From Rhodobacterales bacterium 56_14_T64 (GTDB lineage Bacteria; Pseudomonadota; Alphaproteobacteria; Rhodobacterales; Rhodobacteraceae), in the NCBI GenBank assembly GCA_002162795.1, contig MAAY01000072.1, positions 1 through 41,328 of the forward strand: a stretch of 41,328 nt of DNA, given 5' to 3'. The notes beneath the pieces are model-generated. The model ran no database searches and was not told the origin of the DNA. It worked only from the letters and a program-made list of their open reading frames with translations. Position numbers and translations under genes: made by a program. This document shows positions 18,606 to 27,548 of the stretch, one piece after another (the first letter of the stretch is position 1; each line of letters opens with the position of its first letter).

Positions 18606-20282
18606 GTGAGCGACCTGTGGCGCGGCGATTGGGCCACGCGAACCCGGATCATCACCGGGCTGATCCTGTTCACTTTTTCCTTTTTCCATTTCCTCAACCT
18701 CGGCCTCGGTCTGTTCTCGGACGAGGCCATCGACTGGGGACAAGACACTCGGCAGGTGATCACCCGCAACGTGCTGGGAGAAACGATCATTCTGGCGGCG
18801 CTGCTGACCCATGCGGGCCTGGCAATTGCCAAGCTTGCGGCCCGGCGCACCCTGCGCATGCCCGCCTGGGAGGCCACTCAGGTCGTTTTAGGCCTATCCA
18901 TCCCACTCTTGCTGATCAAACACATTGTCCACACACGGGTGGCGCATGAGGTTTTTGGGGTCAATGACGAATACGGCTATATCACTGTATTGCTGTGGGA
19001 CACAGTGGATGGTGCCTGGCAGTCGGTACTGCTGTTGATCGTCTGGACACATGGCTGCATGGGGCTGCATTTCTGGTTGCGCGCCACAGCTTGGTGGCGA
19101 CGCTGGTTCCCGGTTCTGGTTGGCTTTGCCATGCTGCTGCCCGGCTTTGCCCTGTCCGGCTTCCTGACCCAAGGCCGCCGGATGCTCTTGCTGTTTCAGG
19201 ACGACGAGACCCGCTGGGACCTGATGGAGGATTATCACTGGCCGGATCGCGACACCTTTACCACTCTCATCACGATAGCCGATTATCTACTCTACGCATT
19301 TTGGGTGATCCTGGCGCTGGCCACTTTGTTCTACGCAACTCGCAGGATTCTAAACTGGCGTAAATCGGTACGGATCCGATACACCAATGGCCCCGAGATC
19401 TCGGCCACCAAGGGGCTAACATTGCTGGAAATATCACGGGTTCACGGGGTTCCACACACCGCGTTATGTGGCGGTCGCGGTCGCTGCACCACTTGCCGAG
19501 TGATCATCGAGCAGGGTGGCGACCGATTGCATCCGCCCAGCGCCGCCGAAGCGCACAGCCTGGCGGCGGTCAAAGCCCCCGCTAACGCCCGGCTGGCTTG
19601 CCAAATCCAGCCAAGCCATCCGCTGACCGTATTGCGGGTGTTCCGCCCCGATGGCCGTCGCGACCGCGCCCATGCCAGCCAGGGCGAGGAACGACGGTTG
19701 GCAATCCTGTTCCTCGACATGCGCGGATTTACCGCCCGCACCACCGGCCAGTTGCCTTACGACGTGGTATTCCTGCTGAACCGGTTCTTTGACGCCATTG
19801 TTCCCGGCATCATTGGCGCCAATGGCACGGTGGACAAGTATTTGGGCGACGGGCTGCTGGCGGTGTTTGAAACCGAGGATGAAAAGTCTTCGGCGCGGGC
19901 CGCATTGAAAGCCGCCGAAAATATCAGCACAGCCCTGTCCGAGTTCAACACAAAACTGGTCGAAGAGGGTGGCGCCCCCGTGGCCATCGGAATCGGTCTT
20001 CATCTCGGGGATTTGGTTCTGGGGGAAATCGGCGCTGCTGGCAACGCTCCTCGCACTCTGATCGGGGATAGCGTCAACACGGCCAGCCGACTGGAAAGCC
20101 AAACCAAGGAACTAGGTGTGGAACTGCTGATCTCTGCCAGCCTATTGCAGGCAGCAGGCCACGCCACGGACTGCCTGCCGCTATGCGTACTTCAACTCAG
20201 GGGCGTTTCAGAACCATTGGCAGCCCTGCCAGTAAAACAGGCGACCGCCCTGCCCCGCATCCTGGCCTCGGAACAGAGTTAG
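18606..20282 (+). CDS. Membrane-anchored class III adenylate cyclase with 2Fe-2S domain
   Basis: A 558-residue three-part protein. Residues 1-250 form about six membrane helices with histidines at 28, 69, 106, 109, 114, 149 and 155, the pattern of a haem b anchor like SdhC/cytochrome b proteins. Residues 252-345 are a plant-type ferredoxin domain with Cys288, Cys294, Cys297 and Cys332 (C-x5-C-x2-C-x34-C). Residues 362-550 are a class III cyclase domain with metal aspartates Asp371 and Asp415, the adenine-specifying Lys411 (DKYLGDG), and transition-state Asn491/Arg495 (NTASRLES). All catalytic residues are present, so it should make cAMP. S. meliloti CyaC is a redox-regulated cyclase with a dihaem-b anchor. 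The start is GTG with AGGA upstream. It lies 150 bases after trxB. Confidence 0.88.
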   Translation: MSDLWRGDWATRTRIITGLILFTFSFFHFLNLGLGLFSDEAIDWGQDTRQVITRNVLGETIILAALLTHAGLAIAKLAARRTLRMPAWEATQVVLGLSIPLLLIKHIVHTRVAHEVFGVNDEYGYITVLLWDTVDGAWQSVLLLIVWTHGCMGLHFWLRATAWWRRWFPVLVGFAMLLPGFALSGFLTQGRRMLLLFQDDETRWDLMEDYHWPDRDTFTTLITIADYLLYAFWVILALATLFYATRRILNWRKSVRIRYTNGPEISATKGLTLLEISRVHGVPHTALCGGRGRCTTCRVIIEQGGDRLHPPSAAEAHSLAAVKAPANARLACQIQPSHPLTVLRVFRPDGRRDRAHASQGEERRLAILFLDMRGFTARTTGQLPYDVVFLLNRFFDAIVPGIIGANGTVDKYLGDGLLAVFETEDEKSSARAALKAAENISTALSEFNTKLVEEGGAPVAIGIGLHLGDLVLGEIGAAGNAPRTLIGDSVNTASRLESQTKELGVELLISASLLQAAGHATDCLPLCVLQLRGVSEPLAALPVKQATALPRILASEQS

Positions 20283-20468: not shown

Positions 20469-20482
20469 GTTCACGCGTGAAC
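20469..20482. promoter_or_regulatory. Perfect 14-bp palindrome, candidate operator
   Basis: GTTCACGCGTGAAC is fully self-complementary and lies 22 bases before the start codon at 20505, just after the candidate -10 box. A natural hypothesis is autoregulation by the winged-helix domain encoded immediately downstream. Confidence 0.5.
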
Positions 20483-20504: not shown

Positions 20505-22577
20505 ATGTCGATAGACCTCAATCCTACCACGACCGAAGAGGATCTTCTCTTCCGCCTTTTGCGCCAGCTGGATCTGGCGCCTGAAGCGTCACAACGCGCC
20601 ACTGCGGCTGCGCTGGGTATTTCGCTGGGAAAATTGAACACTCAACTTCGCACTGCGGCCGCGCTGGAACTCATTTCCATTAGCGACAGACCCGGCCCCG
20701 ACAAGCGGCAGCGCTATACCTATACGCTGACCCGCCGCGGGGCCTCTGAAAAATTACGTCTTACCGATCAATTTCTTGCTCGCAAACTTACCGAATACAA
20801 CACGCTGCACGCCGAACTGACCGGCACCGCCAGCGGACTTCCTCATATCAAGCACAGGACACATCCAATGCAGAACAACTTGGCACCAATCCCCGAGCTG
20901 TATGTCTCATACGACTCCGCCCAGAAATTGAAAATCGAAGCGGGTAACCTCAAAAGCCACGATCTGACTCCGCGCCAAATCTGTGATTTGGAGCTGCTGA
21001 TGAACGGTGGTTTCAACCCACTGAAAGGTTTCCTGTCCGAGGAAGACTATAACGGTGTTGTTGAAAACATGCGTCTGGCAGATGGCCAGCTGTGGCCAAT
21101 GCCCATCAACCTTGATGTCTCAGAAGACTTCGCAGCGTCATTGGAAGAGGGCGAAGACATTGCCCTGCGTGACCAGGAAGGCGTCATTCTCGCGACCATG
21201 ACCGTCACTGACAACTGGCAGCCGAACAAAGCCCGCGAGGCCGAGAAGGTCTTTGGTGCGGATGACGATGCCCACCCTGCGGTCAACTACCTGCACAACC
21301 AGTCTGGCAAGATCTATCTGGGCGGCCCGATCATCGGCATCCAACAGCCAGTGCACTATGATTTCCGCGGTCGCCGCGACACCCCAAACGAGTTGCGCGC
21401 CTATTTCCGCAAGCTGGGCTGGCGCAAAGTTGTAGCGTTTCAAACCCGCAACCCGCTGCACCGTGCACACCAGGAACTAACTTTCCGCGCCGCCCGCGAA
21501 GCCCAGGCCAACCTGCTGATCCACCCGGTCGTCGGCATGACCAAACCAGGTGACGTCGATCACTTTACCCGCGTGCGCTGCTACGAGGCGGTGCTGGACA
21601 AGTATCCAGCCGCCACCACCAGCATGAGCCTGCTGAACCTGGCGATGCGTATGGCGGGCCCACGTGAAGCAGTCTGGCATGGTCTGATCCGCGCCAACCA
21701 CGGCTGTACTCACTTCATCGTAGGCCGCGACCACGCTGGACCCGGTAAAAACTCAGCCGGTGACGATTTCTACGGCCCCTATGACGCTCAGGATCTGTAC
21801 CGCGAGAACCAGGCTGACATCGGCTGTGAAATGGTCGATTTCAAGCACATGGTCTACGTGCAGGAACGCGCCCAGTACGAGCCCAACGACGAGATCGAAG
21901 ACCGCGACAATGTCACAGTCCTGAACATTTCAGGTACTGAACTGCGCCGCCGTTTGGCCGAGGGCCTTGAGATCCCCGAGTGGTTCTCGTTCCCTGAGGT
22001 AGTGACCGAGCTGCGCAAAACCAAACCTGCCCGCTCCAAGCAGGGGTTCACCGTGTTCTTTACCGGGCTGTCTGGCTCTGGCAAATCGACTATCGCCAAC
22101 GCGCTGATGGTCAAGCTGATGGAAATGGGCGGTCGCCCGGTGACGCTGCTGGACGGCGACGTTGTCCGCAAAAACCTATCCTCGGAACTGGGGTTCAGCA
22201 AAGAGCACCGTGATCTGAACATCCGCCGCATCGGTTATGTTGCCTCTGAGATCACCAAGAACGGCGGCATCGCCATCTGCGCCCCAATCGCGCCCTATAC
22301 CACAACCCGGCGTCTGGTCCGCGAAGACATCGAAGCCTTTGGCGCCTTTGTCGAAGTGCATGTGGCAACCACATTGGAAGAATGCGAACGTCGCGACCGC
22401 AAGGGTCTGTATGCGCTGGCACGCGCAGGCAAGATCAAGGAGTTCACCGGTATTTCCGATCCCTACGAGATGCCTGCCAACCCCGAGCTATCGGTAGAAA
22501 CCGAAAACGTCGAAGTCGACAACTGCGCTCACCAGGTACTGCTGAAGCTGGAGAGCATGGGGCTGATTTCAGGCTGA
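20505..22577 (+). CDS. Winged-helix (EPS-associated MarR type) domain in frame with bifunctional ATP sulfurylase / APS kinase
   Basis: One open frame of 690 codons. Codons 1-110 encode a winged-helix domain like the MarR-family EPS-associated regulators (ATAAALGISLGKLNTQLRT, YTLTRRGASEKLRLTDQFLARKL). Met122 (20868) then begins a canonical 569-residue sulfate-activation enzyme: ATP sulfurylase with QTRNPLH (192-198 from Met122) and GRDHAGPG (286-293), and APS kinase with P-loop GLSGSGKST (400-408) and DGDVVRKNLS. It converts sulfate and ATP to APS and then PAPS for sulfate assimilation or sulfation. AGGA precedes Met122, whereas the upstream ATG has only a poor ribosome site. Either a fusion protein or two products from one frame are possible. 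Confidence 0.9.
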   Translation: MSIDLNPTTTEEDLLFRLLRQLDLAPEASQRATAAALGISLGKLNTQLRTAAALELISISDRPGPDKRQRYTYTLTRRGASEKLRLTDQFLARKLTEYNTLHAELTGTASGLPHIKHRTHPMQNNLAPIPELYVSYDSAQKLKIEAGNLKSHDLTPRQICDLELLMNGGFNPLKGFLSEEDYNGVVENMRLADGQLWPMPINLDVSEDFAASLEEGEDIALRDQEGVILATMTVTDNWQPNKAREAEKVFGADDDAHPAVNYLHNQSGKIYLGGPIIGIQQPVHYDFRGRRDTPNELRAYFRKLGWRKVVAFQTRNPLHRAHQELTFRAAREAQANLLIHPVVGMTKPGDVDHFTRVRCYEAVLDKYPAATTSMSLLNLAMRMAGPREAVWHGLIRANHGCTHFIVGRDHAGPGKNSAGDDFYGPYDAQDLYRENQADIGCEMVDFKHMVYVQERAQYEPNDEIEDRDNVTVLNISGTELRRRLAEGLEIPEWFSFPEVVTELRKTKPARSKQGFTVFFTGLSGSGKSTIANALMVKLMEMGGRPVTLLDGDVVRKNLSSELGFSKEHRDLNIRRIGYVASEITKNGGIAICAPIAPYTTTRRLVREDIEAFGAFVEVHVATTLEECERRDRKGLYALARAGKIKEFTGISDPYEMPANPELSVETENVEVDNCAHQVLLKLESMGLISG
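20856..20870 (+). promoter_or_regulatory. Internal ribosome binding site and start for Sat-CysC
   Basis: AGGA eight bases before ATG 20868 supports separate initiation of the 569-residue enzyme inside the longer frame. The protein from here starts exactly where the conserved ATP sulfurylase N-terminus (LAPIPELYVS) starts. Confidence 0.55.
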
Positions 22578-25773: not shown

Positions 25774-26031
25774 CTAGAACTTGAGCAGGGAAAAGCTGCC
25801 GCTGGTTTTGCCACCATTCTGGGTCACGGTGCCGCCCGAAGGGGCCTTGGACCCCGTTGTTGCCAGCACAATCAACCCAATCGCGGCCAAGCCCAAAAGG
25901 ATCAGGCCTCCGCTGCTGCTACTACTAGATGTAGGCGCGGCAGGGACTGCCTGAGCGGATACCGGGGCAACACTGGTAAGGGTCAAGCTGGCCGCGACAA
26001 GTGCCGTCGCAGAAATTTTCCGTAGGTTCAT
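25774..26031 (-). CDS. Small exported protein, GSFxLLKF family, copy 1
   Basis: An 85-residue protein with a signal peptide (MNLRKISATALVAASL..., cleavage near AQA at 27), a Ser/Pro-rich stretch, one hydrophobic helix (residues about 42-59, GGLILLGLAAIGLIVLATTG), and a short C-terminal tail NGGKTSGSFSLLKF. A paralogue lies at 27285-27548 with the same layout and C-terminal GSFxLLKF. The start has AGGAA eight bases upstream, and the leader AATAGGAAT is shared with the paralogue. Likely a single-pass membrane or envelope protein; function unknown. Confidence 0.75.
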   Translation of the reverse strand: MNLRKISATALVAASLTLTSVAPVSAQAVPAAPTSSSSSSGGLILLGLAAIGLIVLATTGSKAPSGGTVTQNGGKTSGSFSLLKF

Positions 26032-27284: not shown

Positions 27285-27548
27285 TCAGAACTTGAGCAGC
27301 GTGAAACTGCCGGTGGTGGAGCCACCGTTCCGCGTGACTGTCATGCCCGAATTGTCTTTCTTTTTTGCAGAGCCGGTCGTGACCCAAGCAAACAATCCAA
27401 TAAGTAGCAAGGCTCCCAGCGCCATTTCAGCACTGTTGCCTCCGCTGGATATTGGTGCCACTGGCATGCCAGCGGAGGCAGGCGCCGCGCTGGACAAAGC
27501 CAAGCTGGCTGCAACAAGAGCAGCGGTTGTCGTTTTGCGAAGGCTCAT
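27285..27548 (-). CDS. Small exported protein, GSFxLLKF family, copy 2
   Basis: An 87-residue paralogue of the protein at 25774-26031: signal peptide (MSLRKTTTAALVAASLAL, cleavage near ASA at 26), a Gly/Ser stretch, one hydrophobic helix (about 42-58), a lysine cluster, then VTRNGGSTTGSFTLLKF. The two share MxLRK, AALVAASL, the TTGS after the helix, VTxNGG and GSFxLLKF. The upstream DNA is also similar (TCAACCAGATT then AATAGGAAT against TCAATCAGACTT then AATAGGAAT), so the duplication covered the leader. Function unknown. Confidence 0.78.
   Translation of the reverse strand: MSLRKTTTAALVAASLALSSAAPASAGMPVAPISSGGNSAEMALGALLLIGLFAWVTTGSAKKKDNSGMTVTRNGGSTTGSFTLLKF

Follow-up and report, generated by a model that had tools for sequence, protein, structure and literature searches.

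The window analysed here, a stretch of 41,328 nucleotides from Rhodobacterales bacterium 56_14_T64, raises the question of whether sulfate activation is tied to DNA binding within a single gene. Cells spend ATP when they activate sulfate to APS and PAPS, and roseobacters are prominent among the bacteria that cycle sulfur in the sea. From the letters alone, the original prediction had offered two alternatives for a continuous frame in which a winged-helix domain runs into ATP sulfurylase-APS kinase (Sat-CysC): a fusion acting as a trigger enzyme, or one frame giving a long and a short form. Comparison with related loci supports both alternatives, which we favour together, and we consider it likely that this is a self-regulating two-start sulfate-activation gene, which could make a long DNA-binding enzyme resembling a trigger enzyme and also an enzyme-only form. 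The features on which the argument turns are collected in Table 1.

Table 1. Features of the fused sulfate-activation gene and their positions in the window
Feature	Position	Strand	Length or basis
Long frame: winged helix, ATP sulfurylase and APS kinase	20505..22577	+	690 aa plus stop (TGA)
Predicted winged-helix DNA-binding domain, residues 11-106	20535..20822	+	TIGR04176 HMM, AlphaFold2, Foldseek, dN/dS
Linker of constant length, residues 107-121, containing the internal ribosome-binding site	20823..20867	+	Gap-free in 107/107 loci; pLDDT drop
Internal Shine-Dalgarno AGGA, within codons 118-119	20856..20859	+	AGGA in 106/107 loci, CGGA in 1
Short frame, enzyme alone, from the internal ATG	20868..22577	+	569 aa plus stop; NF004040
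ATP sulfurylase part, residues 129-505	20889..22019	+	PF14306 PUA-like 129-280, PF01747 catalytic 291-505
APS kinase domain, residues 513-664	22041..22496	+	PF01583; P-loop GLSGSGKS in the sequence
Operator-like palindrome GTTCACGCGTGAAC, core GTTCA-N4-TGAAC	20469..20482	.	14 bp; core counts in fused, unfused and standalone loci

The long frame contains no internal stop, continues for 8 more open codons upstream (698 codons in total), and is the sole match at E ≤ 0.001 in the 4.3-Mb source genome. Its enzyme part belongs over its full length to NF004040 / PRK05537 (bifunctional sulfate adenylyltransferase/adenylylsulfate kinase, Sat-CysC), scoring 1029 bits at residues 120-689 against a curated cut-off of 669. 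The translation carries the motifs FQTRNPLHRAH, VGRDHAGPG and GLSGSGKST, which we take to be the Sat-CysC catalytic-site motifs QxRNPxHxxH, GRDHAG and P-loop GxxGxGKS, and nearly all of their residues are invariant or close to it in 59 aligned sequences. The stop-free run from a winged helix into a full-length Sat-CysC is therefore borne out, with HMM matches to both parts, and the positions given earlier for the enzyme's own AGGA and ATG, and for its 569 codons, hold. Among solved enzymes, the nearest by sequence are the fungal ATP sulfurylase structures 1i2d and 1m8p, then the bifunctional Sat-APS kinases 2gks and 3cr8, all with the same domain order and near full-length similarity. They differ in the N-terminal region: the best stretch reaches residues 1-121 in none of the 36 matching solved-structure sequences (second stretches, present in 3, are not included), and the winged-helix domain alone has zero matches among solved-structure sequences at E ≤ 1.

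Elsewhere in the window, the gene directly upstream (18606-20282, +) encodes 558 aa with 2Fe-2S ferredoxin and adenylate/guanylate cyclase domains and, by eye, a hydrophobic N-terminal part; judged by its domains, the product is possibly a redox-sensing cyclase. Two small open reading frames at 25774-26031 (-) and 27285-27548 (-) resemble each other in a signal-like segment at the N terminus and in the C-terminal sequence TVTxNGGxTxGSFxLLKF, and perhaps represent a small paralogous secreted family.

The N-terminal domain had been called EPS-associated and MarR-type. The winged helix and the likeness to MarR_EPS both stand, and formal membership does not, since residues 11-106 score 74.4 bits within the whole protein and 79.1 bits alone (74-79 bits) on TIGR04176 MarR_EPS, under the cut-off of 88. 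Three other fused domains, at 78.7-82.6 bits, likewise fall under this value, so that all four fused domains scanned fail, whereas the four standalone regulators scanned all pass. The fused domain is a diverged MarR_EPS relative that is not filed as a TIGR04176 member; what it has in common with MarR_EPS is the winged-helix fold, seen in a model, and the operator-like palindrome, seen by sequence comparison. Modelled with AlphaFold2, residues 1-121 (pLDDT 85.1) form a winged helix in the order H-H-H-E-E-long helix, the last being a 30-residue C-terminal helix at residues 77-106, and model confidence drops in the linker from residue 111 onward. The full-length AlphaFold2 model was poor (pLDDT 66) and was left out of interpretation. 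In Foldseek, MarR-family structures lead by E-value, the best being HcaR (4rgu; E 8.5e-05, TM 0.52), and the highest TM among the matches listed is that of Sso10a-2 (4hw0), 0.62. Pooled dN/dS is 0.17 for the winged helix, 0.34 for the linker and 0.11 for the enzyme (1237 non-independent pairs). The value for the winged helix indicates that this domain is translated and under purifying selection as a protein, and the comparison reveals selection on both protein parts.

How widely the joined frame occurs was estimated from one genome per genus of Rhodobacteraceae. The winged helix was present in 91 of these 295 genomes and the joined frame in 57 of the 295 genera, plus one (G032) in which it ends at a contig edge. 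The 58 high-identity domain matches comprise 57 in frames of at least 690 codons and the contig-cut one, while the 47 weaker matches (≤48% identity) sit in frames of 120-393 codons. The Sat-CysC enzyme query gave matches, some of them weak, in 277 of the 295 genera, and among the enzyme matches listed many strong ones have frames of 570-620 codons. Of 289 alphaproteobacterial genomes drawn and searched at E ≤ 1e-150, a threshold at which distant fusions would be missed, 7 gave an enzyme match; the domain was covered in only 2, both from Rhodobacteraceae, the window's genome being one. Scanning genome contigs contributed 80 loci, each aligning across the domain-enzyme junction. The full collection, which counts the window's own locus, numbers 107 unique fused loci, being 111 minus the exact duplicates L002, L045, L067 and L105. 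Because the 80 contig-scan loci and 30 loci from the genus draw were retrieved with queries containing the winged helix, counts such as 107/107 are conditional on a match being found, and the frequency estimate comes from the 295-genus draw alone; in 29 of the 107 loci, from the genus draw, the enzyme is covered only to about residue 621.

Across this collection the two parts are never separated. A stop between the domains (residues 11-122) occurs in 0 of the 107 loci and the linker is gap-free in all of them, and in the 77 relatives with a complete gene the frame stays open through the end of the enzyme. Each locus offers an average of 2.8 single-base changes that would put a stop in the linker. 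A stop codon between the domains in relatives had been named as the observation that would point to a sequencing error; the continuous frame is instead real and represents a conserved fusion. A sequencing error or missed stop is thus out, given that no locus has such a stop and no split copy occurs among the 58 high-identity matches, and a chance open frame in GC-rich DNA is excluded by homology and dN/dS. We also considered that the enzyme might be made from its own start and the winged helix act as a regulator, their attachment having no role. The strong conservation of the internal start described below, and the position at which unfused relatives start, near the homologous site, would fit such nested genes, but the linker stays open and gap-free in every locus despite the stop-making changes available, and 20 of 20 standalone relatives of the domain end at their own stop; we therefore judge a functionless attachment quite improbable. 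In favour of a fusion that matters as such, we read the frame as most likely one long protein with a second start inside it.

Two irregular frames were seen along the way. G525 has a 1101-codon frame around Sat-CysC that on visual inspection resembles GC-rich noise and shows no further domain that could be recognised. In a genome with the fusion, G237, a TAG lies inside an enzyme match (C33:278552-280255), which may reflect either a copy in decay or a mistake of assembly. In the literature covered (titles and abstract openings, partial in coverage and with subscription journals mostly outside), a fusion of a winged helix to Sat-CysC was not found described.

The linker carries the most telling signal of the whole analysis. 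Residue 118 is Arg in 107 of 107 loci and is encoded by AGG in 106 and by CGG in one, while AGG makes up 30 of 5036 Arg codons (0.6%) elsewhere in the same frames and reaches a top count of 5 in the 46 other Arg-majority columns. Residue 119 varies (T 87, N 9, S 7, I 2 and M 2), with every codon beginning with A; all seven Ser codons at this position are AGY, a class that accounts for 23% of Ser codons elsewhere. Eight bases past the AGGA there is a start codon in every locus, ATG in 100 and GTG in 7. Canonical Shine-Dalgarno 4-mers precede 106 of the 107 internal starts, as against 298 of 3642 other in-frame ATGs of the enzyme. As the AGGA word is kept while the encoded protein varies, the internal start appears to be selected as DNA, and this codon-level pattern identifies an internal ribosome-binding site and start under nucleotide-level selection, the strongest result obtained here. 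Estimated duplex energies follow the expected order, with means of -4.27 kcal/mol at the internal start, -1.92 at the long start and -2.78 at random sites, and they discriminate poorly, since at a cut-off of -4.5 random sites (24%) pass more often than internal starts (16%).

Such conservation bears directly on the idea that the AGGA-ATG is a leftover from before the fusion, or serves another role such as mRNA structure or pausing, and that only the long protein is made. It is general knowledge that translating ribosomes can occlude a ribosome-binding site inside a coding region, which would lend this idea some plausibility. Nevertheless, AGGA persists in 106 of 107 loci despite much synonymous change (enzyme pS is 0.44 even in pairs with dS under 0.8), and only initiator codons occur at the start. 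Moreover, AGGA stands before 2 of 40 unfused Sat-CysC starts, and any canonical Shine-Dalgarno 4-mer before 3 of 40, so that AGGA is not a shared heritage of the enzyme start. We hence regard a leftover as highly improbable and retain the internal start as a probable site of initiation.

The long start is a different matter. When it is taken as the first in-frame ATG past the palindrome, or otherwise GTG or TTG, just 3 of 106 long starts have a canonical Shine-Dalgarno 4-mer, and a TTTGAG word with conserved GAG lies ahead of the long start. Since canonical 4-mers are rare at the working starts of unfused enzymes too (3/40), their absence does not prove weakness, and the claim that the long start is weak stays a soft one. 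The unfused Sat-CysC starts (L120-L159) are themselves mostly preceded by GAGAG- or GAAAG-like words rather than by canonical AGGA or GGAG, a habit that start-site predictors may miss.

The 14-bp palindrome of the original prediction is present, at 20469-20482, and it precedes the fusion's own start rather than a separate upstream gene, to which it had been assigned. Of the 107 fused loci, 105 have the strict core GTTCA-N4-TGAAC in the 150 bp that precede the domain; of the two exceptions, L068 ends at a contig edge and L082 carries, at the usual position, a version with one base changed. The relaxed core GTTC-N6-GAAC occurs in 106 of 107 (L082 counted through a second, upstream site), compared with 2 of 419 control windows farther upstream, and 22 of the 107 loci have two relaxed-core sites. 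For 40 unfused Sat-CysC loci, picked roughly by rank among the enzyme matches listed, the upstream stretch of about 600 bp contains neither form. Among 20 standalone MarR_EPS-type genes, drawn from the 47 non-fused domain matches in the 295 genera, 8 have the strict palindrome no more than 400 bp upstream. A matrix derived from the sites of the fused loci and applied to 200-bp upstream regions scored above 95% of shuffles in 106 of 107 fused, 13 of 20 standalone and 0 of 40 unfused loci, the other 7 standalone genes having no site above the shuffle threshold within that distance. Comparison of the loci thus establishes a palindrome that tracks the domain, and the joint occurrence of domain and site in two gene contexts is the usual comparative argument for an operator, from which GTTCA-N4-TGAAC is very probably the operator of the winged helix. 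A median of 19 bp (about 20 bp in the window) separates the end of the palindrome from the long start, and 61 of 105 loci have a CTTT box whose first base lies 29 bp ahead of that start. A scan for sigma-70-like promoters gave zero matches, and a scan for terminators found nothing.

A larger regulon, though conceivable, did not emerge from the sites listed. The source genome contains 8 strict palindromes, against 3 for a reversed-pattern control, and the seven others all overlap an open reading frame by mechanical calls, six of them lying inside a longer one only. When 14 genomes (11 fused and 3 unfused) were searched with two mismatches allowed, the matches listed covered 6 of the 11 fused genomes, and in all six the Sat-CysC promoter had a site with 0-1 mismatch. 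Other 1-mismatch sites among the matches listed were one each in G238 and G257 and one each in the unfused G128 and G073. Because unfused genomes, too, have more sites than the control, the excess carries no information, and no recurrent second target was seen among the matches listed in the source-genome and 14-genome searches. The remaining one of the seven other strict palindromes in the source genome, GGGTTCAAACGTGAACCC near position 1501 of L118, also lies just ahead of a 172-aa open reading frame, whose product presumably resembles an ArdA-type antirestriction protein.

The operator and domain evidence (105/107 fused, 0/40 unfused, 8/20 standalone) would also serve a plain autorepressor, in which only the long protein matters, repression occurs whatever the state of the enzyme, the enzyme provides dimerization and the internal start is minor. 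The modelled helix at residues 77-106, which may resemble a dimerization helix, and a long start that may be stronger than its missing canonical Shine-Dalgarno implies, are also compatible with it. This explanation, however, leaves unaccounted for the AGGA of 106 and the ATG or GTG of all 107 loci, and we regard it as unlikely compared with a gene that uses both starts.

The standalone relatives offer some indication of where the domain came from. The 20 standalone MarR_EPS-type domains have 36-49% identity to the fused winged helix, and their genes all end at their own stop, 94-142 codons after the match start. Within 200 bp upstream, 18 of these 20 genes (L160-L179) have a GCGG(T/C)AGC element, found in 0 of the 107 fused loci, which we take to be JUMPstart-like and to function in antitermination, suggesting that the standalone regulators head exopolysaccharide operons with an antitermination element. 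The TIGR04176 regulators are therefore kin to the fused domain by a homologous winged helix and, in 8 of 20 cases, by the same upstream palindrome, but they are free-standing, mostly preceded by the JUMPstart-like element and, in the four scanned, above the family cut-off, and the fused domains (four scanned for the cut-off) differ on each count. In a FastTree phylogeny from few columns, the fused winged helices group together to the exclusion of the 20 standalone ones (support 100).

The enzymes tell a less simple history. One fused and one unfused enzyme clade were not found; the tree, a weakly resolved product of a quick search with 47 of 115 inner branches open, requires 23 parsimony changes, at least 5 of them forced by the starred branches. 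Fused and unfused enzymes are intermixed, so that some lineages do without the domain, and a single origin of the fusion with repeated later loss would be the simplest reading, with transfer as the alternative. On plasmid pRLO149_63 of Roseobacter litoralis (L220), an unfused Sat-CysC, annotated with 571 codons including the stop and without a domain match, lies amid dTDP-rhamnose and glycosyltransferase genes. Similar plasmid Sat-CysC copies were seen in other Roseobacter records and in Sulfitobacter pontiacus, their presence hinting at sulfated polysaccharide. Given the JUMPstart-like elements of the standalone genes and the neighbours of the R. litoralis plasmid copy, it is plausible that the original joining took place in an exopolysaccharide setting. 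In a proteomics table for R. litoralis, bifunctional Sat/CysC is entered with the value 64.39, here taken as kDa (PMC4103551); as the plasmid Sat-CysC of this species is unfused, the value says nothing on the long form.

According to the above comparisons, a mechanism for the gene can be proposed. Initiation at 20505 would give a protein of 690 residues, its MarR_EPS-type winged helix flexibly tethered by a short linker to ATP sulfurylase-APS kinase, and initiation at the AGGA-ATG (20868) would give the 569-residue enzyme alone; we infer that both products are made, and that the short form is probably the more abundant, owing to the stronger Shine-Dalgarno at its start. The winged helix would bind GTTCA-N4-TGAAC at 20469-20482, most likely repressing its own gene rather than activating it. 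The long and short forms could probably co-assemble through the enzyme oligomer, and occupancy by substrate or product may alter DNA binding in the fashion of a trigger enzyme. The likeliest signals would be PAPS or APS, proposed because the enzyme of 1i2d and 1m8p is, as we presume, a fungal hexamer regulated by PAPS. A more elaborate version, in which the trigger enzyme dilutes itself, is put forward tentatively and with some doubt: the ratio of long to internal starts would set the number of DNA-binding arms per oligomer, and a mixed complex from one gene would sense PAPS or APS, dock at its own promoter, and both catalyse and repress, with an arm recruited from the exopolysaccharide regulator family.

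Known systems provide precedents for the parts. BirA carries a winged helix at its N terminus, and in NadR a DNA-binding part is joined to both an adenylyltransferase and a kinase. The present gene is like these and PutA in joining a metabolic enzyme to a gene-controlling DNA-binding domain, here a predicted one; at the level of the open frame, a complete enzyme and this predicted domain are encoded as one polypeptide. Trigger enzymes have been defined and five of them listed for E. coli K-12, with BirA, NadR and PutA among the comparators used here, and ATP sulfurylase-APS kinase is absent from that list as given in the part of the source consulted (PMC8249747). Unlike those enzymes, the gene has a DNA-binding part that is MarR_EPS-like and a conserved internal start that appears to give an enzyme-only form. 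In the consulted parts of two further sources, pairs of in-frame N-terminal proteoforms in bacteria arise from nested starts with a common stop codon (PMC11005335), and phage endolysins yield two proteins from nested in-frame starts (PMC9430671). The fused loci have the corresponding conserved internal ribosome-binding site and initiator (AGGA in 106/107, ATG or GTG in 107/107), and their two forms would differ from such genes within genes in that the difference is a DNA-binding domain aimed at the gene's own promoter. The new element is a gene that, besides a likely trigger enzyme, seems to yield the catalytic part of that enzyme without its DNA-binding arm.

Many marine roseobacters thus have a sulfate-activating enzyme with its own DNA-reading domain, which could let the enzyme control its own supply, and the fusion offers a single-gene case for how the state of an enzyme reaches transcription. 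Since either form should be removable by one start change, the roles of the two would be separable genetically. Furthermore, the operator assignment predicts binding sites for MarR_EPS-type regulators at their own genes.
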